From the NCBI GenBank assembly GCA_903789635.1, contig CAIFEY010000027.1:1-42765 (forward strand): DNA of 42,765 nucleotides, given 5' to 3'. The position numbers were made by a program, and so were the translations under genes. Origin of the DNA: an uncultured Eubacteriaceae bacterium (GTDB taxonomy: Bacteria; Bacillota; Clostridia; Peptostreptococcales; Anaerovoracaceae). Shown piece after piece: positions 9,994 through 20,235 of this stretch (position 1 is the stretch's first letter; every line of letters begins with the position of its first letter). The notes below the pieces were generated by a model, which worked only from the letters and a program-made list of their open reading frames with translations, was not told the origin of the DNA and ran no database searches.

Positions 9994-11157
9994 TTATTTT
10001 GTCGACTTATCCGGATCGACGTGCCTGGCGTAGGCCTCGGACTCCTTGCGCTCCTCTTCCCATTCCATGCCTTTCACGAGGTCGCGGCGGACGTGCTGCT
10101 TCTGGCGGGCGTAGAGCTGGGTCGTCGTGACCTGGTCGTGGTCCAGCAGGGCGGCGACGTCGTAAATGGAATTTCCGCGCCCGATCAGGCTCGTCGCGGC
10201 GGTGGCCCTGAGTTTATGCGGGCTGTAGCCTGCGCGGCGGCTCGTGTTCATGGCGATGGACGTGTACTTTTTTACGCAGGTTCGGATCTGCCGGCCCGTC
10301 ATGCGGTGATTCTGCAGCGACAAAAACAGCGCGTCCCGATCGCGTTCCTCGAGCAGGTCGTCGTGCGGCCGCTCCTCCTGGATGTACTCGCGGATGACCT
10401 CCTCGACCGAGCGGTTCAGCGGCATCAGCGACTCCTTGCCGCGCTTCCTGTAGATTTTGAACTCTCCGCGGTCGAAGTTGAACGAGCTCACATTCAGCTG
10501 CTGCAGCTCGCTGAGCCTCAGGCCGTACGTCAGGAACAGGACGAGGATCGCCTTGTCCCTGTACTTGGTCTTCTCCCAGTAGCTGCGTTCATGGCTGGTC
10601 AGCCCCTCGCCGTTCGTCACCGCGTCCAGCATGACCATGACCTCGTCGTCGTTCAGCGCCATGACCTCGTGCTCGCTCGCCTTCTGCACCCGGATCGGGT
10701 TGAAGCCGTCCGTGATGTTCTTCTCGAGGAGCCCGTCGCGGTAGAGCTGCTTGAACAGCACCGAGAGCGAGGCCTTCTTGCGGGCGAGTGAATAATTGCC
10801 GTTCTCGTAGATGTATGCGTGGTTGTCACGCTCCACCTTATACTGCCTGCACCAGTTCAGGAACTCGTTCACGTCCTGCGCCCGGATTTTCCTGAACTCC
10901 TCCAGCGTGACCTGCGCCGTGTCGACCGCCTGCGTGAAGTCCGTGACATTTACCAAATACTGGAAAAAGAAGTGCACATCCTGCAGATACGCGAGCTGCG
11001 TCGCCGGCAGCACATTTCCCCGCAAATAGAGAAAAAACCCACGCATCCACGTCGGCAGCGCCCTCTGCACGCGTTCGCTCTCCAGGAAAAGCTCCTTCTC
11101 CTTCTCGACCACGTTGTCCGGCCGATCCGTCTTGTTCTGAATCTTTACCGAATCCAT
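9994..11157 (-). CDS. Tyrosine recombinase / site-specific integrase
   Basis: A 387-residue XerC/D-type tyrosine recombinase. It has an N-terminal SAM-like core-binding domain (about 35-150) and a C-terminal catalytic domain (about 175-360). The catalytic set is visible: Arg in GLRLSE (R214), HKLR (H314, R317), LLDH (H340) and nucleophile Tyr in QLYARQ (Y349). The start at 11157 follows GGAGG; an in-frame extension of 49 codons comes from a 57-bp tandem repeat and is probably untranslated. It sits among housekeeping genes on the same strand, without other phage or transposon genes. It may be a resident chromosomal recombinase of the kind often found beside miaA/lexA in Clostridia rather than an active element. 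Its target site is unknown. Confidence 0.9.
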   Translation of the reverse strand: MDSVKIQNKTDRPDNVVEKEKELFLESERVQRALPTWMRGFFLYLRGNVLPATQLAYLQDVHFFFQYLVNVTDFTQAVDTAQVTLEEFRKIRAQDVNEFLNWCRQYKVERDNHAYIYENGNYSLARKKASLSVLFKQLYRDGLLEKNITDGFNPIRVQKASEHEVMALNDDEVMVMLDAVTNGEGLTSHERSYWEKTKYRDKAILVLFLTYGLRLSELQQLNVSSFNFDRGEFKIYRKRGKESLMPLNRSVEEVIREYIQEERPHDDLLEERDRDALFLSLQNHRMTGRQIRTCVKKYTSIAMNTSRRAGYSPHKLRATAATSLIGRGNSIYDVAALLDHDQVTTTQLYARQKQHVRRDLVKGMEWEEERKESEAYARHVDPDKSTK

Positions 11158-11179
11158 CGGTTTTCCCTCCTTCCTCTTA

Positions 11180-11326
11180 GACAAAGTCCACCCGCCCCGG
11201 CGCAACAGCTTCCCCGCCGCCAGGCATTGTCTTTCCGACAAAATCCATCCGCCCAGGCGCACCAGCTTTCCCGCCGCCAGGCACTGCCCTCCGACAAAGT
11301 CCACAAGCTCAATTCCACCAGCTTTC
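11180..11326. repeat. 56/57-bp tandem repeat, 2.6 copies
   Basis: Units start at 11180, 11237 and 11293, each opening with GACAAARTCCA and followed by a CRCCAGCTTYCCCGCCGCC-type core. Copies 1 and 2 are about 85% identical; the third is truncated. The array lies between miaA and the recombinase and preserves an open frame in the recombinase phase. Confidence 0.8.
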
Positions 11327-11366: not shown

Positions 11367-12326
11367 TTACACATCCGCCTCTGCGCCGTATGCGAACGCC
11401 CGGACATCTTCAAAAATCGCCTCCAGGCACGATTCCGCGTCCTCGTACTCGCTGATGTTGAACCAGTGCATGTCCTTGTAGCGCCGGAACCACGTCATCT
11501 GCCGCTTCGCGAAGTGGCGGGTGTTGCGCTTGATCAGATCGACGGCCTCGTCCAGCGGGTATTCCCCGTGCAGGTATCCGATCATCTCCTTGTAGCCGAT
11601 GCCCTTCATCGAGATGTGCTCCTCCTCGAGCCCCATCGCGAGCAGACGCCGAACCTCGTCCTCGAGGCCCTGTTCCATCAGGATGTCGACGCGCAGGTTG
11701 ATGCGGTCGTAGAGCTCCTGACGGTCGCGCGCGAGCCCGATCAAAAGGAAGTCGTAATCCGGATTCCGCTTCGGCTCCCCGCTGAAATCGCGCCACTTTC
11801 CGCCGCTCTCCGCGACCTCCAGGGCCCGGATCACGCGCTTGACGTTGTTCGGGTGGATGTGCTCCGCGGCCGCCGGGTCCTTCCCGCGCAAAACCTCGTG
11901 CAGCGCCTCGTTCCCGTTCTCCCTGGCGAACGCCTCCCAGGCCTCGCGGCGCTTCGGATCTTCCGGCGGGCGGCTGAAGTCCAGGTCATACAAAATTCCG
12001 TCGAGGTAGAGCCCCGTGCCGCCCGCGACGATCGGGAGCTTCCCGCGCGAGCCGATATCCGCGATGCACGGCTTCGCGAGCTCCGCGTACCTCGCCGCCG
12101 AGAACGGCTCCCTCGGGTCGATGCAGTCGATCAGGTGGTGCACCGCCTGCGCCTGCTCCTCCGGCGTCGGCTTGGCCGAGCCGATGTCCATGAACTTGTA
12201 AAGCTGCATGGAATCGCAGGAGACGATCTCCCCGTTGAACTTCTTCGCAATCTCGATGGCAAAGCTGGTCTTTCCCACCGCCGTAGGGCCGCAGACCGCG
12301 ACCACCTTCTGCCTGGAACCTGTCAT
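11367..12326 (-). CDS. miaA: tRNA dimethylallyltransferase MiaA
   Basis: A 319-residue enzyme that transfers a dimethylallyl group from DMAPP to N6 of A37 in tRNAs reading UNN codons. The P-loop GPTAVGKT (13-20), the DSMQLYK segment (about 38-44), the GSAKPT region, IDPREPFSAARY (about 68-79) and IVAGGTGLYLDGILY (about 99-113) are standard MiaA motifs, and the length is typical. GAGAGGAG precedes the ATG. It belongs to the mutS-mutL-miaA cluster found in many bacteria, here split from mutL by about 2.5 kb of non-coding repeats. Its own promoter probably lies at about 12486. Confidence 0.96.
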   Translation of the reverse strand: MTGSRQKVVAVCGPTAVGKTSFAIEIAKKFNGEIVSCDSMQLYKFMDIGSAKPTPEEQAQAVHHLIDCIDPREPFSAARYAELAKPCIADIGSRGKLPIVAGGTGLYLDGILYDLDFSRPPEDPKRREAWEAFARENGNEALHEVLRGKDPAAAEHIHPNNVKRVIRALEVAESGGKWRDFSGEPKRNPDYDFLLIGLARDRQELYDRINLRVDILMEQGLEDEVRRLLAMGLEEEHISMKGIGYKEMIGYLHGEYPLDEAVDLIKRNTRHFAKRQMTWFRRYKDMHWFNISEYEDAESCLEAIFEDVRAFAYGAEADV

Positions 12327-12454
12327 GTACTCCTCTCCGTTTCTCTGCTATGTCGGGTTCTGCGTTCTGCCGCCCCCGCCTGAAAACCGGCGGACGTCTC
12401 CGCATTGAAAGATGCGGACTACGGTGCCTGGTTTTCCCGTTTCCTCAAATTAAC

Positions 12455-12491
12455 AGGGCTGCATGATCGCAGCCCCTTACTATTTAGTATA
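12455..12491 (-). promoter_or_regulatory. Probable miaA promoter element and leader hairpin
   Basis: TATACT (12486-12491, minus strand) could be a -10 box; no good -35 was found. Just downstream is a 7-bp hairpin, GGGCTGC/GCAGCCC (about 12455-12474), and a second stem around CCGCAT/ATGCGG (about 12395-12415) before the start codon. These could be leader structures. Confidence 0.4.
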
Positions 12492-12499
12492 CCATTTTC

Positions 12500-12720
12500 C
12501 CGCCATTCGCGCCACCCTGGCTGGTTCTGTCGAAACAAGCCGGCGGCGCTGCCCTGGTGAATTATGCGGATCAAGCCGCCCGCGCGGCATCATGGCGCGA
12601 ACCCGTCGGCGCACCACCAGGCAAGTGCTGATGAAAGAAGGTGCCGGTGCGCCACCCGGGCGATTTCTGTGGAAGAATGACGCTCGCGTGCTACCCTGGC
12701 TAATTCTGTAGAAGAAAGCC
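12500..12720. repeat. Degenerate tandem repeats upstream of miaA
   Basis: Three or four imperfect units, with spacing varying around 50-70 bp, contain CCCTGGYTRATTCTGT-like and GAAGAAAGCCGCCG-like blocks. Open frames across it look like by-products of the repeat. Confidence 0.5.
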
Positions 12721-12768
12721 GCCGCCGCCTGCCGAAGTCCGCCTCTACTGCGGTGCGAAACCGTGGAT

Positions 12769-13263
12769 GCTTTTCGAACGCGCCGATCACGGCAGACACG
12801 CTGAGCGCAGCAGACACGTTGGGTAAGAAGCGCTTGGTGAGGGCGCGTGTATACTGCATCCGCCGCTCTGTATTTCGGAAAATCACTTCCCGTTTTGCCC
12901 TTTCCGACACCGTCTTCCGTTTCTTCGGATTATCTTCTCCCTGATCAGGAATTCCGACTTATCCCTGCTGCGAACAGGCTGAATCTGTCGGCGCATGCAT
13001 CCCTTTCGGCCGACACCGACTCTGTTCATCCAGAAATGATTGCACAATTGCTATCGATCAGTCGTTTGCAGCTATTGGTTATATCGAATATGCCTTCGAG
13101 ATCAACTCTTTGGCGATATCCCATCGATCCATTGCTAATTTCATTTCCTCAGGTTTTCGGAAAGTGCCCCTCCAACCCCTGCAATTCCGAGTTATTTATT
13201 TCACAATCGGAAAAGATGTGTTGAGGTCGGCGCTTTCCGAACGCGCCGATCACGGCAGGCACG
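12769..13263. repeat. Dispersed direct repeat (32 bp, about 460 bp apart)
   Basis: A block reading GCTTTYCGAACGCGCCGATC and continuing ACGGCAGRCACG occurs at 12769-12800 and 13232-13263 with two mismatches. Weaker similarity continues for about 50 bp (ending near GGTGA). No gene was found between the copies. Confidence 0.75.
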
Positions 13264-13886
13264 GTGGGCACAGCTGACGCGCTGAATACAGAAGTGCTCG
13301 GTGAGAAGCGGAACGCGAAGTGTGAATGAATGAAAGTGGGCGTGCGGCCAGAGAGAAGTGAGCCCTCGCGGACAACCGCGCTCCCCGCCAACTTCTTACT
13401 ATTGGACAATAACACTCAATAGCAAGAAGAAACCGGAAATCTTCTTGGATATTGAATTTAATTCAAAATATAAGAAGCGCGCTCCCTACCGGATCAGGGC
13501 AATCCTAAATTATCAGAAAACTATCGGCGCCAATTATAGCGAAATTGCAGTTGGTGCGCAGGCATGGGATCGCGGCGCGGCGAATCCGCATGCATTCGCC
13601 AGGAAGCGGCCGAATATAATGAATGCGGATTCGCTGTCATGCGGGGAATGTGACTGCATGCGAGCTATACCTGACCGCCCGCTGCGACGATGCCGAAGCG
13701 CTGAGGCGAAAACAGCCTTTGACTGGCTTCCTATCAGCGAATTTTTTCGAGAAATTCACGAAGATTTCCCGAAAGTTCTTGCTTTTGATCCTTAATCACG
13801 AAATGTAAGAAATACCGCCAGATCACCGGGTTTATGGAGGTTGTTTAAGAACGGCAAAATTATTCCTATCGTCCACCTGCACCGCC
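13264..13886. other. Non-coding stretch, mixed composition
   Basis: No supported gene. It has an 8-bp hairpin at about 13422-13446 (CAAGAAGA/TCTTCTTG) and a short AT palindrome (TTGAATTTAATTCAA) in an AT-richer stretch around 13400-13560. Possible decayed sequence. Confidence 0.35.
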
Positions 13887-14766
13887 CGAATTCTTGCGAA
13901 GCACGTCTTCGCGCGTGGCGGAACCATCCTCCCACGGCCGCACTGCCCCGCGGACAATCACCGCTCCCCGCCGACCATCACCCCAAACCAGCAGGCCGTG
14001 GATCTCGAGAAGTTTTTACTTGTGCATTCAGCGGGTCGCGCGGGCGGAACCATCCTCCCACGGCCGCACTGCCCTGCGGACAACCGCACTCCCCGCCAAC
14101 CATTACCCCAAACCAGCAGGCCGCGGGTCTCGAGAAGTTTTTACTTGTGCATTCAGCGGGTCGTGCGGTATGCAGGGAGGAGGCCGTTCGTGAAAACTGA
14201 GAACGCCGTCCGCATATTAATGGGGAGACCACCTGCGTAATGCTGTCGCCCTCACGATTCGCAAGCAGAATGCGCCGCGAGAGTGATGGGGACTGCTTAT
14301 GCTTTTTCGGCCCAAGAGAGCGAGCCCGTGAGGGCGACGCTCGATTGGCCTGCCGAAAGTCGTATCATAGGCCGAATTCTTGCGAAGCACGTGTTCGCGC
14401 GTGTCGAAACCATCCCCCGCGGCCGCACTGCCCCGCGAACAACCGCACTCCCCGCCAATCATTACCCCCAAAACAGTACGCCGTGGATCTCGCGAAGTTC
14501 TTACCTGTGCATTCAGCGGGTCGCGCGGTATGCAGGGAGGAGGCCGTTCGTGAAAACTGAGAACGCCGTCCGCATATTAATGGGGAGACCACCTGCACTG
14601 TGCGAATTCTTGCGAAGCACGTGTTCGCGCGTGTCGAAACCATCCCCCGCGGCCGCACTGCCCCGCGGACAATCATCGCTCCCCGCCGACCATCACCCCA
14701 AACCAGCAGGCCGTGGATCTCGATAAATTCTTCCTTGTGTATTCAGCAAGTCGTGCGCATGTTAAC
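13887..14766 (+). repeat. Tandem array of decayed, inverted mutL 3'-end copies
   Basis: Four units run head to tail (about 13887-14040, 14041-14236, 14372-14596, 14601-14766). Each contains a block around GATCTCGAGAAGTT plus a CAT/TATTCAGC..GTCG tail that matches the last codons and 3' flank of mutL, but on the plus strand. Translated in that phase it reads CPADNHRSPPTITPNQQ followed by DLEKF, compared with CPHGRPTFIRF..DLEKF in MutL. Units 1, 3 and 4 begin with a conserved GAATTCTTGCGAAGCACG block. Positions 14166-14236 and 14526-14596 are identical over 71 bp. Confidence 0.75.
14245..14358 (+). other. Candidate structured RNA element with GTGA tetraloop
   Basis: This 114-bp segment lies inside an insertion within the repeat array. 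On the plus strand it folds as TTTCGGC(14305-14311)/GCCGAAA(14352-14358), CCAA/TTGG, a GA/GA internal loop, GAGCG/CGCTC, an A/GA internal loop and GCCC-GTGA-GGGC (14324-14335). GNRA-type loop and tandem G-A mismatches are typical of real RNA. A second 12-bp segment, GTCGCCCTCACG (14245-14256), is perfectly complementary to 14327-14338 and would break the apical hairpin, giving two alternative folds. No known family recognised. Confidence 0.4.
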
Positions 14767-14886
14767 GGGGCGGTCATGTGCGCTGCCTGAACTCTTGCGG
14801 AGCACGTGTTCAGGCAGCGTACGTGACCGCCCCTGTAAAGAAAGCGCACGACTTATTGAATGCGGCGGAAGAACTTCTCGAGATCC
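14715..14886. repeat. Large palindrome fusing mutL 3' end to its inverted copy
   Basis: The centre is a 26-bp stem (14767-14792 with 14808-14833) with two G-T wobbles and a 15-nt loop. Similarity continues outward so that 14715-14792 and the complement of 14808-14886 are near-identical over about 78 bp. The right arm includes the last ~34 nt of mutL. The inner stem may act as the mutL terminator, although it has no T-run. Confidence 0.8.
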
Positions 14887-16976
14887 CGCCTCGTAAAGCG
14901 GATAAACGTCGGCCTCCCATGCGGGCAGCTGAACGGGTTGCTGCACTGCGCGAGGCGGTCGATCAGCGCGTGCATCTCGGCGTCGGTGAGCTTCTCGTGG
15001 GCTTTGACTGCGCGCTTGCAGGAGTGTGTGATCAGCTTGTCGATGACGACGTTGTTCCGCAGACGGTCCGCGTCGGCAGAGCCGCCGGATGCCTGGTCGA
15101 GGAAGTCTTTGGCGAAGTCCTCTGCCTCGGAGATTGACATGAATGCCGGGATTTCGGAAATCTTGTAGGTGTCGGGGCCGAAGCCCTCGACGGTGTAGCC
15201 CATGTCCTCGAGCGCCGGTTTCCAGGCCTCCTCAGAGGCGGTCACGGCCGGCTCGGTCTCGAGGATGATCGGGAGCAGGATCGGCTGGCGGACCTTGTCC
15301 TCCTGCAGGTAGGCGCCGACGAGCTTCTCGTAGAAGCAGCGCTCGTGCGCGGCGTGCTGGTCGAACAGGTAGAAGCCGTCCTCGGCCTCCGCCATGATGT
15401 AGGTATTGAAGATGCAGCCCTTCAGCGTCAGGTCGGAGAAGTCGAACGGGCGCGGGCCCTCCGGCTGCAGGTCAAAGTCCAGAAGCGGACTGCGCCTCTC
15501 GGACGCGCCGGTTTCGCCGCCGGAACCTATTTCTGCGCCCTGCGCGAACGCCTGTTTCCTCGCCTGCTCGAGCTCGTTTTCCTGTTCCTTCTTCTTTCTG
15601 CGCTCCTCGAGGACCTGCTTCAGGTCGAGATGGGAGGCGTACTGCTGCCAGGACTTCAGGGACGCGGAATCCGTTGGGACGGCGTCGTCCGGGCGGCCGC
15701 CGGCGTGATTGGAAGAGGCGCCGCGGCCGCGCGTCGATCGTGAGGCTTGGCCGGCAGCTCCGGTCATGGAAAGCTGCTCGGCGTCTTTGCCGCTGAAGAA
15801 CGGTTCGGAAGCCTCAATTCTATCGCCGCCAGCGGCTCCAAGGCTTCCAGCGCTCTGGGCGGATCCGAATGCAGCAGCGTCCTGCGTTCTGTACGGCGTT
15901 CTGGCAGTGGCTTTGTCGGAGACGAAGGAGGTGTCGGAAGCGTTGGAATCTCCCGAGCTGCGGAGGTAGTAGTCCTGCACGTCGACGGCCGCGTCGAGGG
16001 CGGAGAGGGTTTGCCTGACGGCGTTCGTCACCGCGTCGCGGATCCTCTTGTCGTCGTGGAAGCGGACCTCCTTCTTGCTCGGGTGGATGTTGACGTCGAG
16101 GCCGTGGGGGTCGCTCTTAAGGAAGAGGAAGACGACCGGGTAGCGCCCGTCGAACATGCGGCGCTTGTAGCCCTCCGTCACGCCCTGCTCCAGCACGCGG
16201 CTCTTGACGACCCTGCCGTTGACGAAGTACGTCTGGTTCCGCCTGCTCGGGCGGGTCAGGGACGGCCTGGAGATGCATCCTGTGATCTGGATGCCCGGCT
16301 CCTCGTACTTCACCGGGAGGAGGTGCTCGTAGTCCTTTTGGTGGCTGACCGCGAGGATCGCGTCCTTCAGGTTTCCGTTTCCGGAGGTGGCAAAGACCAG
16401 CCTGCCCGAGTTAATCACCTGGAACCTGATCCTGCAGTACGCGACCGCAAGCTCGGACAAAAGCTCCAGGATCCTGCTGCTCTCCGCAGCGTCGGATTTC
16501 AGGAACTGCTTCCTCGCCGGGGTATTGTAGAACAGGTCGCTGACGATCATCGACGTGCCGACCGGGCAGCCGACCGGATCGTTGCTCAGTACCCTGCCCC
16601 CGTGCAGGACGACCCTGCGCCCGGCCGGGCTTTCCTCCGTCCTGGTGATCAGCGTCGTCCTCGTCACGGCCGCGATGCTCGCCAGGGCCTCCCCGCGGAA
16701 GCCCAGGCTCTCGATCGCGTCCAGGTCCTCCGCCTTGGTAATCTTGCTCGTCGCGTGGCGGAGGAAGGCCGTCTCCGTCTCCCTGGACGGAATGCCGCAG
16801 CCGTCGTCGGTCACGCGCATGTAGTCCTTTCCGCCGTGCTTCAGCTCGACCGTGATCGAGGACGCGCCCGCGTCGATGGAATTTTCCACGAGCTCCTTGA
16901 TGACGGAGACCGGGCGGTCGATGACCTCGCCGGCCGCGATCTTGTCGGATACGTTTTTCTCTAAAACCTGAATCAA
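14853..16976 (-). CDS. mutL: DNA mismatch repair protein MutL (endonuclease type)
   Basis: A 707-residue GHKL ATPase of methyl-independent mismatch repair. N-terminal ATPase motifs: ELVENSIDAGA (28-38), DDGCGI (57-62), GFRGEAL (92-98), and NIHPSKKEVRF (296-306). A Gly/Ser/Ala-rich linker spans about 335-510. The C-terminal nicking domain has the metal motif DQHAAHERCFYE (539-550), SCKRAVKAHEKL (652-663) and CPHGRPT (684-690), so this MutL should nick DNA itself. QPILLP (564-569) fits the beta-clamp binding motif QxxLxP. The start is TTG at 16976 with GGAAGG upstream. It lies 268 bp after mutS. Its last codons form one arm of a palindrome and seem to be the source of the decayed copies downstream. 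Confidence 0.96.
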   Translation of the reverse strand: MIQVLEKNVSDKIAAGEVIDRPVSVIKELVENSIDAGASSITVELKHGGKDYMRVTDDGCGIPSRETETAFLRHATSKITKAEDLDAIESLGFRGEALASIAAVTRTTLITRTEESPAGRRVVLHGGRVLSNDPVGCPVGTSMIVSDLFYNTPARKQFLKSDAAESSRILELLSELAVAYCRIRFQVINSGRLVFATSGNGNLKDAILAVSHQKDYEHLLPVKYEEPGIQITGCISRPSLTRPSRRNQTYFVNGRVVKSRVLEQGVTEGYKRRMFDGRYPVVFLFLKSDPHGLDVNIHPSKKEVRFHDDKRIRDAVTNAVRQTLSALDAAVDVQDYYLRSSGDSNASDTSFVSDKATARTPYRTQDAAAFGSAQSAGSLGAAGGDRIEASEPFFSGKDAEQLSMTGAAGQASRSTRGRGASSNHAGGRPDDAVPTDSASLKSWQQYASHLDLKQVLEERRKKKEQENELEQARKQAFAQGAEIGSGGETGASERRSPLLDFDLQPEGPRPFDFSDLTLKGCIFNTYIMAEAEDGFYLFDQHAAHERCFYEKLVGAYLQEDKVRQPILLPIILETEPAVTASEEAWKPALEDMGYTVEGFGPDTYKISEIPAFMSISEAEDFAKDFLDQASGGSADADRLRNNVVIDKLITHSCKRAVKAHEKLTDAEMHALIDRLAQCSNPFSCPHGRPTFIRFTRRDLEKFFRRIQ

Positions 16977-17065
16977 CAGGGACCTTCCTTTCTCTTAAAA
17001 TTGTAATTAAATTACCGGCAGTCGGCACGCTTAGGACTGTGCGGCGGCGCGAAATGCATGTATAC

Positions 17066-17103
17066 CGTATACAGACGCTCTATTCCCGTTGGATCTGTAT
17101 ACG
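17066..17103. promoter_or_regulatory. 10-bp inverted repeat between mutS and mutL
   Basis: CGTATACAGA (17066-17075) pairs perfectly with TCTGTATACG (17094-17103), separated by 18 nt. It lies in the 268-bp mutS-mutL spacer with no T-run, so an operator or an RNA-processing stem is as likely as a terminator. Confidence 0.5.
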
Positions 17104-17244: not shown

Positions 17245-20235
17245 TTATTCCTTGTTCGCCAGCTCCTGCAGGATCTCCAGCTCGTGGATCGCCTGGGACG
17301 GCGTGATCTCCATGAGGTAGAGGCTGCGGATGCGCTCGAGCGCCGGGTTGAGCGGGCCTGCGAACAGGCTGAGCTGGACGCCGGATGCCTGAGCGGCGCT
17401 GCCTGCACTGCCGGAGGCCGTGCCGCTGTCGTTTGCGCCGTTTTCGCCGCCACGATCGGATTTCCTTAATTTTTCGGCGTCAGAAGCGGCGGATGCCGCC
17501 GGAGCGGCTTCCAGTGGCGTGGATTTCGCGGCGCCTGCGGTTTCAGCAGGGATCGGCGCGTCTTCGGATTTCGCGTATGCGGTTTCCGGCTCGCGCAGTT
17601 CGTCGGCCGCGGCGCTGTCTGCGCCGGTGTCAGCGGACAGTGCTGCATTCGCGGCCGCGGTACCGGTGGCCAGCGGGTCGGGTTCCAGATTGGATGGGGT
17701 GGATTTTGCCGCAATGGAAGCTGAATCCTGCGGATCCATCGAGTCGATCGCACTGTTTGGCGCGGTGGCGCTGTCCGATGAAGAGGTCAGGATCTGCGCC
17801 TCTGCCTCCTGCTCGCCGCCCTCGAGCTGGGCGAGCTTCTCCTCCGCGTCCTTAAGCAGCGGATCGGGAACGCCGGCCAGCCTGGCGACGTGGATGCCGT
17901 AGCTCCTGCTCGCGGAGCCCGGGACGATCTTGTGGAGGAAGACGATCTGACCGCTGTCCTCCAGGACGTCGATGTTGTAGTTTTTTACGCCGGGGATCTG
18001 GTCCTCCAGGACGGTCAGCTCGTGGTAGTGGGTCGCGAACATCGTGCGGATCTTCAGAGTGTCGCTGCAGAGGTATTCCACGACCGCCCAGGCGATCGAG
18101 AGTCCGTCGTAGGTGCTGGTCCCGCGCCCGATCTCGTCCAGGATGATCAGGCTGCGCGGTGTCGCGTGGCGCAGGATATAGGCGAGCTCGCTCATCTCGA
18201 CGAAGAACGTCGACTGCCCCTGCGCGAGGTTGTCGGACGCGCCGATCCTCGTGAAGATCCGGTCGACCGTCCCGATGTGTGCGCGGTCGGCAGGCACAAA
18301 GCACCCGATCTGCGCCATCAGCACGATCAGCGCGGTCTGGCGCATGTAGGTCGACTTTCCGGACATGTTCGGCCCGGTGATAATCATCATCGAGGCGTCG
18401 GTCTCGTTCATCTGTGTGTCGTTCGAGACGAACATGCCCATCTCGGTCGTCTGCTCGATGACCGGGTGGCGGCCGCCGGTGATGTCCAGCGCGTCGCTGT
18501 CGTCGACCTCAGGCCGCGTGTAGCCGTAGCGCAGGCTGACGTTCGCGAAGTCGGAGAGCACATCAAGCTGGGCGATCGCCTGCGAGCTCCGCTGAATCTC
18601 ACGGATCCAGCCCTCGATCTCGTGGCGGAGCTCCGTGAAGAGGTCGTACTCGAGGTCGTTGATCCTGCCTTCAGCGTTCAGAACGATGCCCTCCTGCTCC
18701 TTCAGCTCCGGGATGATGAACCGCTCCGCGCCGACCAGCGTCTGCTTCCTGATGTAGTCCTCCGGCACCTGGTCCAGGTTCGAGCGGCTGACCTCGATAT
18801 AGTAGCCGAAGACCTTGTTGAACCCGACCTTCAGGTGGGTGATGCCGGTGCGCTCCTTCTCCCTGGCCTCGAGCCCGGCGATCCAGGCCTTCGCGTCCTT
18901 GATGGAGTCCTTCATCGCGTCGAGCTGCTCGGAATAGCCCGTTCGGATCAGTCCGCCCTCCTTCACCGTCGCCGGCGGGTCCTCGGTGATCGCGCGCTCA
19001 ATCTTATCGTGAATCTCTTCGAGGTCGACGATGCTGTCCTTCAGCTCGTTCAAAAGAGAGCTCTGCGTGCCGTCCAGGGCCGCGCGGATCTGCGGCAGCG
19101 CGCCGATGGAATTCTTCAGCGCGATCATGTCCTTGCCGTTCGCATTTCCCGAGGCAATCCGCCCGCTCAGCCGCTCAAAGTCGTAGACTTGCTTCAGCGA
19201 CTCCCGGATATCGCTTAAGATTCCAGGATTTTCCAGAATCTCCTGCACCGCGTCGAGCCTCGCGTTGATGCGCTCCGTGTCGTTCAGCGGCTCCCTGAGC
19301 CAGTGCTTGAGCATGCGCGCGCCCATCGCCGTGCCCGTCTTATTCAGGATCCCGAGCAGCGACCCGGCCGTGCGCTTGTCGTACAGCGTCTCCGTGATCT
19401 CGAGGTTCCGAATCGTCGCCTTGTCCAGCGACATCCGCCCGCCGATCTCGTAGTAGCGGCAGTCCGTCAGCTGTGACAGCCCCTGCTTCTGCGTCTCCAG
19501 GAGGTAGGACAAAAGAGTTCCGACCGCCAGGATACAATGGTCCCTGCCGGCAAGCCCGAGTGCCGTCAGCGAACCGTTCCCGAACTGCGCGCGGACCGTC
19601 TCCTCCGCCGCCTCGAGCGAAAGCTCCTCCGGGTACGGGCTCACAAAAGCCCCGGTCAAGTGCTCCGCCTCCTTGGAATCGTGGTTCTCAAGCAGGTCCT
19701 TGTTTGCCAGAATCTCGCGCGGGGAGATGCGGACGAGCTCATTCAGCAGGTCCTCGTACGTCCCGTATTTTCCGCGCTGCTCGGTCACCGCGAGCTCTCC
19801 GGTCGAGATGTCGCAGTAGGCGACCGCCATCCCCTGCCCGTCCAGGTAGGCGCAGGCGAGGTAGTTGTTCTCGTCCTCCTTCAGAATCTGGGAGGAGGTC
19901 ACGGTTCCCGGCGTGACGACGCGGATGACGCCGCGCTTGACCATTCCCTTGGTCTTGGCCGGGTCCTCCAGCTGCTCGCAGATCGCGACCTTGTAGCCCA
20001 TCTCCACGAGTTTGGCGGTATAGGAATCCGCCGCGTGGAACGGGACGCCGCACATCGGCGCCCTCTCCTCGAGCCCGCAGCGCTTTCCCGTCAGCGTCAG
20101 CTCCAGCAGCCGGGAGACGAGCTTGGCGTCGTCGAAGAACATCTCGTAGAAATCGCCGAGCCGAAAGAACAGAATACAGTCCTTATACTGCTCGTGAATC
20201 TCTAAATACTGCTGCATCATCGGGGATAAAGCCAT
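17245..20235 (-). CDS. mutS: DNA mismatch repair protein MutS, with long disordered insertion
   Basis: A 996-residue mismatch-recognition ATPase; most MutS proteins are near 850-880. The mismatch-reading FYE (29-31) lies in GDFYEMF. Core, clamp and ATPase domains follow, with Walker A GPNMSGKS (621-628), Walker B LIILDEIGRGTS (697-708) and THYHEL (735-740). Residues about 806-952 are an Ala/Ser/Thr/Asp/Glu-rich stretch with no predicted fold, which accounts for the extra length. The beta-clamp motif QLSLF (954-958) stands right after it, then the usual C-terminal tail. AAGGAG precedes the ATG. mutL follows on the same strand. The insertion keeps the reading frame and genome-like third-position GC, so it is probably real and not an error. 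Confidence 0.96.
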   Translation of the reverse strand: MALSPMMQQYLEIHEQYKDCILFFRLGDFYEMFFDDAKLVSRLLELTLTGKRCGLEERAPMCGVPFHAADSYTAKLVEMGYKVAICEQLEDPAKTKGMVKRGVIRVVTPGTVTSSQILKEDENNYLACAYLDGQGMAVAYCDISTGELAVTEQRGKYGTYEDLLNELVRISPREILANKDLLENHDSKEAEHLTGAFVSPYPEELSLEAAEETVRAQFGNGSLTALGLAGRDHCILAVGTLLSYLLETQKQGLSQLTDCRYYEIGGRMSLDKATIRNLEITETLYDKRTAGSLLGILNKTGTAMGARMLKHWLREPLNDTERINARLDAVQEILENPGILSDIRESLKQVYDFERLSGRIASGNANGKDMIALKNSIGALPQIRAALDGTQSSLLNELKDSIVDLEEIHDKIERAITEDPPATVKEGGLIRTGYSEQLDAMKDSIKDAKAWIAGLEAREKERTGITHLKVGFNKVFGYYIEVSRSNLDQVPEDYIRKQTLVGAERFIIPELKEQEGIVLNAEGRINDLEYDLFTELRHEIEGWIREIQRSSQAIAQLDVLSDFANVSLRYGYTRPEVDDSDALDITGGRHPVIEQTTEMGMFVSNDTQMNETDASMMIITGPNMSGKSTYMRQTALIVLMAQIGCFVPADRAHIGTVDRIFTRIGASDNLAQGQSTFFVEMSELAYILRHATPRSLIILDEIGRGTSTYDGLSIAWAVVEYLCSDTLKIRTMFATHYHELTVLEDQIPGVKNYNIDVLEDSGQIVFLHKIVPGSASRSYGIHVARLAGVPDPLLKDAEEKLAQLEGGEQEAEAQILTSSSDSATAPNSAIDSMDPQDSASIAAKSTPSNLEPDPLATGTAAANAALSADTGADSAAADELREPETAYAKSEDAPIPAETAGAAKSTPLEAAPAASAASDAEKLRKSDRGGENGANDSGTASGSAGSAAQASGVQLSLFAGPLNPALERIRSLYLMEITPSQAIHELEILQELANKE

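Follow-up and report, generated by a model that had tools for sequence, protein, structure and literature searches.

Gene 3' ends mirrored around dispersed palindromic repeats in an uncultured Eubacteriaceae genome, with an array of inverted mutL ends

The window analysed here is the whole of contig C27 (42,765 bp), one of the 77 contigs that make up the 2.64-Mb draft genome of an uncultured Eubacteriaceae bacterium. It carries mutS, mutL and miaA on the same strand (Table 1), and a Xer-type tyrosine recombinase, whose best match is to the XerS model at a score below its cut-off, adjoins miaA (9994-11304). A distance of 2,526 bp separates mutL from miaA, and the spacer between them is composed, from left to right, of element C, units 1 and 2, spacer Y, element B, unit 3, a second Y, unit 4, element A and the mutL end. 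Comparison of this spacer with relatives, which had been proposed as a check in the first-pass annotation of this DNA, revealed that the MiaA P-loop motif lies 25-127 nt past the mutL stop codon in 13 of the 15 congeners whose mutL end was inspected, and that the whole spacer is absent from 13 of the 15. As for the two exceptions, only 33 nt of flank are present in G003, and the motif search gave no match in G012; a further congener, G009, lacks any MutL match. These congeners are distant, with 58-64% identity in the N-terminal part of MutL. A phage or plasmid origin was set aside, as blastn of positions 13887-14900 gave no match in 72,556 plasmid and 50,697 phage records; the exact A loop is likewise absent from viral_contigs. 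A known RNA family at the locus was also ruled out, since an Rfam search of 12300-17100 with E up to 1 returned just two matches, both to microRNAs and both short of the gathering score.

Table 1. Features of the mutL-miaA region (window positions unless another locus is named)
Feature	Coordinates	Strand	Remarks
miaA	11367-12326	-	
Element C	13392-13815	.	partly palindromic dispersed family; in mutL-miaA spacer
A loop remnant	13877-13921	+	start of unit 1; E 0.07
Unit 1	13887-14042	+	opposite strand to mutL
X of other units	13911-13999, 14038-14124, 14397-14484	+	
Inverted copy m' of unit 1	14000-14043	+	33/45 identical columns
Unit 2	14043-14167	+	opposite strand to mutL
Inverted copy m' of unit 2	14125-14168	+	33/45 identical columns
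Spacer Y	14168-14235	+	68/68 identical to 14528-14595; end resembles A left arm (by eye)
Element B	14236-14364	+	second dispersed family; between units 2 and 3
Further B copies	L204:5614-5859, L206:17169-17414, L203:18385-18632		
A loop remnant	14373-14397	+	start of unit 3; E 0.02
Unit 3	14373-14527	+	opposite strand to mutL
Inverted copy m' of unit 3	14485-14528	+	33/44 identical columns
Degenerate element A	14577-14652	+	between units 3 and 4; E 2.1e-4
Unit 4	14603-14757	+	opposite strand to mutL
X of unit 4	14627-14714	+	no mutL homology; similar to flanks of some D elements
Giant palindrome	14708-14891	.	A core plus mirrored mutL end, ~184 nt
Inverted copy m' of unit 4	14715-14758	+	left palindrome arm; 36/45 identical columns
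Element A	14762-14838	+	full palindromic copy, palindrome centre; loop GAACTCTTGCGGAGCACGTGTTC; E 2.0e-16
Source segment m	14844-14886	-	last 34 mutL coding bases incl. stop + 9 flank bases (43 bp)
mutL	14853-16976	-	707 aa, TTG start as listed; NCBIfam TIGR00585, 5.4e-154; source of copied 3' end
mutS	17245-20235	-	

The first-pass annotation held that the 3' end of mutL recurs four times, inverted, on the opposite strand, and this stands for the 43 bp at the mutL end but not for the sequence upstream of them. Each of the four units closes with the reversed 14844-14886 segment; units 1, 3 and 4 consist of an A-loop, X and m', and unit 2 is without the loop. The units were aligned with the 3' end of mutL, represented by its last 150 coding bases and 53 flank bases, and compared with 1000 dinucleotide shuffles under strict and loose scoring. 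With coding and flank bases together, no shuffle reached the score of any of the four units under strict scoring (0/1000), and 2, 1, 1 and 0 of 1000 did so for units 1-4 under loose scoring; with coding bases alone, the counts per 1000 shuffles were 0, 0, 1 and 2 (strict) and 16, 10, 2 and 27 (loose). The alignment check proposed for the units thus came out in their favour at the mutL end. For the sequence preceding the final ~43 bp, 665, 346, 357 and 689 of 1000 shuffles equalled the similarity to mutL, and mutL homology of this part, X, was therefore rejected. Of the translated pattern CP..PTI..DLEKF, which had been likened to the MutL C-terminus, DLEKF is inherited from mutL, while the CP..PTI likeness, matched as well by shuffles, is a coincidence because X fits mutL no better than shuffled sequence does. 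What had been described as an array of mutL copies does contain the mutL 3' end, but also A-loop remnants, X and element B. When X was compared with sequence flanking a D element on L219, none of 500 shuffles was as good for any of the four units, and comparisons with four other D flanks gave mixed results (0 to 117 of 500 shuffles). The array is a mosaic in successive parts, with units 3 and 4 agreeing at 59/59, then units 1 and 4 at 48/49, then units 1 and 2 and units 1 and 3 at 45/48.

An assembly artefact or a chance similarity is, in our assessment, extremely unlikely. The draft state of the genome and the difficulty of assembling palindromes speak for it, but the two arms are mismatched at about 20-25% of sites, unlike an artefactual fold-back, the strict shuffles with flank never reached the observed scores, and similar structures are found on other contigs.

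As had been claimed, the nearest inverted copy and the true mutL end form one hairpin, with element A at its centre. As single-stranded DNA, it folds at -70.2 kcal/mol, whereas shuffles average -29.2 (sd 3.2; z -12.8), and as RNA on the mutL sense strand it folds at -113.3 kcal/mol (z -12.5). The central hairpin had been taken for a terminator and is instead a copy of a dispersed palindromic element: a scan of 12250-14950 for T-tailed G+C stems, as in intrinsic terminators, gave three matches, all within 12455-12766, and none at A, so that A as the mutL terminator was ruled out. Selection for the mirrored ends themselves, with a very strong 3' hairpin protecting or isolating the mRNA of the upstream gene, would be consistent with the strength of the RNA fold and with the position of the hairpin between mutL and miaA, which are neighbours in 13/15 congeners. 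This explanation is nonetheless highly improbable, as it leaves unexplained why inverted copies lie at distances of about 490 to 850 bp, why the array is four-fold and why arms are mirrored at a non-genic site on contig C45.

Element A has a core of 77 nt and a stem of 30 pairs, and its loop carries GCGAAGC or a near form. The oligonucleotide d(GCGAAGC) forms a DNA mini-hairpin of very high stability; no support for this stability was found in the open-access literature searched. Allowing up to 3 mismatches, the A-loop pattern occurs at 14 sites in the genome and at none in 16 congeners or in the backward control. A covariance model built from 12 copies identified at least 13 strong copies in the own genome (12 by construction, the one on C45 being new), a lower bound in that 150 of 1177 first-look candidates were scored. 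The 31 matches listed at E <= 0.1 include array remnants, a centre-deleted copy and hits to these palindromes on their reverse strand. Also among the 31 is C37:14186-14283 (E 1.3e-4), a different hairpin. With stricter filters, the covariance search found A in 0 of 147 other genomes of the family. Across the stem, 96.1% of 360 cells are paired and both sides have changed in 13 of the 30 pairs, with 0 of 500 shuffles as high; this covariation describes, rather than proves, a functional fold, because the rows were picked as palindromes. The wobble cells are asymmetric: on the strand complementary to the coding strand of mutL, of tpiA and of the C31 gene, 53 G-T cells were counted against 7 A-C cells (alignment A2), 36 of the 53 being supplied by four pair positions, as if one strand folds and is selected. 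One A copy on C43 (L207:8870-8919) is without the inner hairpin, by eye through a deletion between flanking direct CATGTG repeats.

The other dispersed families were followed in the whole genome and in a sample of 40 stretches plus the window (812,471 bp), in which 19 of the 40 stretches had been picked since their contig held a repeat match. Element B has about ten copies in the sample, three of which hold ~125 extra bases at one shared internal position; the copy in the window has no Rfam match. Element C has matches on C13, C32, C40, C38 and C29, among others. D is a ~178-bp palindrome of the own genome (e.g. on C47, C26 and C15), with 56 own-genome blast matches, partial and both-strand matches included, and one 26-bp match among 16 congeners; several D copies have an outer layer in common.

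For the 13 A copies, the 70 nt to the left of the core were compared with the 70 nt to its right, and each own pairing was ranked among 24 swapped pairings. Own arms topped all 24 in 6 of the 13 copies, clearly at mutL (53 v 36), tpiA (40 v 27), C43a (50 v 35) and C45 (65 v 36), and narrowly at C3 (44 v 42) and C35b (38 v 37). In the other seven, own arms were beaten or tied by one swapped pairing (C51), by five (C31) or by 10-22 (C35a, C18, C12c, C12a and C43b). Mean arm scores over the 13 copies were 36.7 for own and 22.6 for swapped pairings. For D, own arms topped all swapped pairings in just 1 of 17 copies. The A copy on C45 (L253:880-1140) has 64 columns of mirrored non-genic arms and lies upstream of a gene that we take to be htpG-like.

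These arms bear on the possibility that transposition makes the mirror, with A, C and D as MITE-like elements that pass through a hairpin intermediate and copy one flank across upon insertion. Confinement of the dispersed palindromes to the own genome, among the genomes searched, would fit such a process, as would the G-T excess in the A stem, which looks as if a single strand were used. We consider it improbable, however: no target-site duplication is evident by eye (mirrored flanks would hide one), the own genome has no Y1 transposase match in a search that covered Y1 only, and 7 of the 13 A copies are without arms that beat all swapped arms. The Y1 transposase family of RAYTs (PF01797), expected in a genome with REPs of the GTAG type, had 0 matches in the own genome while the control matched in 5/14, and RAYT-driven REP spread was thus ruled out. 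Bacterial MITEs are short, dispersed and palindromic. Their inverted-repeat ends, small size and many copies are found in A (13 strong copies) and in D (56 blast matches), but A differs in that no target duplications were seen by eye and that no transposase with matching ends was identified, Y1_Tnp being the one searched. REP elements of the GTAG and CGTC groups are similar in being dispersed hairpins, often 3' of genes and sometimes within longer palindromes. Their stems carry a terminal tag and measure 5-13 bp in the GTAG group and 8-9 bp in the CGTC group (PMC3733652). The A stem is longer than these, and several copies have locus-specific flanking arms; CGTC does occur at the outer edge of many A copies, but there it does not tag a short stem.

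Mirrored ends at other genes were surveyed by comparing the end of each ORF of at least 100 aa in the sample with the reversed downstream 1.5 kb, at a score of at least 34. Hits were obtained for 10/648 ORF ends, as compared with 0/648 complement controls and 3/643 ORF starts. The same survey in two congeners gave 0/159 and 0/169 for ends, 1/159 and 0/169 for complement controls, and 1/151 and 0/164 for starts, the single control and start hits both belonging to G006 at the same threshold. Under a related scoring (ORFs of at least 150 aa, score at least 36), hits were found for 6/522 ends, 1/523 starts, 0/522 and 0/523 complement controls and 3/522 reversed controls; a stricter scoring over 1 kb (at least 30) gave 8/656 ends, 0/656 for each of two controls and 2/644 starts. 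Four of the ten survey hits are family-supported genes, namely mutL, tpiA and those for a transglutaminase-core protein and a trpR-like protein. Four others are likely spurious ORFs in repeats, with no Pfam match (L210 15944-16489, L189 11673-12230, L205 9123-9527 and L203 17557-18243), and two were set aside, outside the family search (L203 12058-12402 and L197 9029-9409).

At tpiA (C12), 27 bp, comprising 19 coding bases with the stop and 8 flank bases, are mirrored around an A copy. At the transglutaminase-core gene (C31; 723 aa), a reversed copy of the final 32 bases, stop included, lies 488-518 bp downstream, past B and A. At the trpR-like gene (C16; 121 aa; L216:11500-11900), which lies in a stretch sampled without regard to repeats, the gene end forms the outermost arms of a nested ~340-nt D-family hairpin (-129.3 kcal/mol, z -15.2), and 26 bases of it recur reversed twice downstream. 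The first-pass emphasis on a mismatch-repair gene as a special source is therefore not upheld, because these unrelated genes are mirrored similarly. The A core lies 15 nt from mutL and 13 nt from tpiA, both of whose ends are mirrored; among the 13 A copies, no other has an ORF of at least 150 aa terminating within 20 nt of it, in a count in which seven copies had one side without such an ORF in the locus. Source and copy are equally near the centre of the inverted repeat at mutL and at tpiA; the transglutaminase gene has B on one side only. Read in the orientation of the A loop, each of the three A-linked loci has its gene on the right-hand side and the mirrored copy on the left. Such a bias would be expected if a particular direction of replication mattered, but three cases prove little.

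We infer the following order of events at mutL. A dispersed palindromic A would have arrived some ten bases past the mutL stop. During replication, the nascent strand, having copied the mutL end and then A, would fold back on the A hairpin, template itself, copy the mutL end again in reverse and rejoin its proper template, and the product m'-A-m would be the giant palindrome. Exchange between the repeated A and X of neighbouring units could then multiply A-X-m' and shuffle its pieces, a putative source of the observed mosaic. The same process may have acted at other palindromic repeats of this genome, their arms taking in flanking DNA that includes gene 3' ends, and no function would be required.

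The proposition that the flank was copied to the far side of palindromic repeats by fold-back template switching there, and was then amplified by unit exchange, is in our view about as likely to be right as wrong. It retains the first-pass proposal of a template switch followed by tandem amplification as the preferred reading, although the hairpin is no terminator and only ~43 bp derive from mutL. It is favoured because source and reversed copy flank palindromic repeats at unrelated genes, and because of the locus-specific arms, the survey excess, the centre-deleted A copy and the array mosaic; the copies are locus-specific reverse complements of a nearby source, as template switching would produce. 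Against it stand the family support for only 4 of the 10 survey hits, the reversed control (3/522 vs 6/522), the hits among the G006 controls (1/159 and 1/151), the repeat-based choice of 19/40 stretches, and the 7/13 A and 16/17 D copies without arms topping all swapped pairings. Moreover, the E. coli reporters described in PMC7202029 fix 4 bases in an 18-bp repeat, far below 43 bp.

The reverse order, in which gene ends formed their own fold-back hairpins first and palindromic elements were inserted in the hairpin centres later, strikes us as rather unlikely. In its support, a PHP-domain gene (C29, L203:936-1802 and the next 20 nt) has a 17-bp hairpin with one mismatch, in which the final codons of the gene make up the stem, the stop codon falls in the loop and an element is absent; D sits within a D-like outer layer; and divergence is slightly greater in the outer mutL arms (36/45) than in the A stem (84% of 37). 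REP dimers lie inside palindromes in A. variabilis, H. neapolitanus and T. roseum, as stated in the passages on these genomes in PMC3733652. However, a fold-back of about 27-43 bp would be needed at each gene regardless, and bare end hairpins (score at least 24) are no commoner at ORF ends (4/518; reversed controls 2/518) than at ORF starts (5/518). In addition, when the 812-kb sample was searched for empty sites, the D layer gave only 3 unrelated hits, and the 8 hits for A, which include the centre-deleted A copy, contained no convincing empty site; mutL also runs nearly straight into miaA in 13/15 congeners.

Returning to the fold-back reading, template switching at inverted repeats is already known. 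In E. coli, it perfects inverted repeats, with the nascent strand templating itself, and the reporters described in PMC7202029 register the correction of 4 bases within an 18-bp imperfect repeat that is already there. Self-templating at an inverted repeat is common to that quasipalindrome process and to the one proposed here, in which, by contrast with the reporters, about 27-43 bp of flank would be added outside the repeat. Template switching has also been proposed to create RNA stems, as inferred for microRNA and rRNA genes (Monttinen and Loytynoja 2022, PMC8794818). As in our case, a reverse-complement copy would arise near its source in one event, and the stems described there are maintained; here, dispersed palindromes and protein-gene 3' ends of one bacterium are concerned, with later amplification. 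The open-access literature searched yielded no recognisable report in which the 3' end of a gene is mirrored around a dispersed palindrome.

Our findings suggest that palindromic repeats in this genome can grow by copying their neighbours. A broader reading, which we advance tentatively as possible but short of probable, is that the palindromes of this lineage accrete: dispersed elements would repeatedly copy one side onto the other, so that their arms record the neighbours and captured pieces are amplified. If so, this would be a standing mutational process and not a set of isolated accidents. Should the fold-back reading be true, these loci would provide natural, repeated cases in which about 27-43 bp at a gene end were copied by fold-back on a hairpin template and both the source and its copy can still be read, in a genome that has MutS and MutL together with SbcC and SbcD matches. 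The origin of long intergenic palindromes would then be directly testable, and one route by which coding sequence leaks into non-coding repeats would be at hand. Loss of SbcCD as the cause of palindrome survival was considered and rejected, as matches to SbcD (frame of 402 aa) and SbcC_Walker_B (frame of 945 aa) are present about 3 kb apart on C32.
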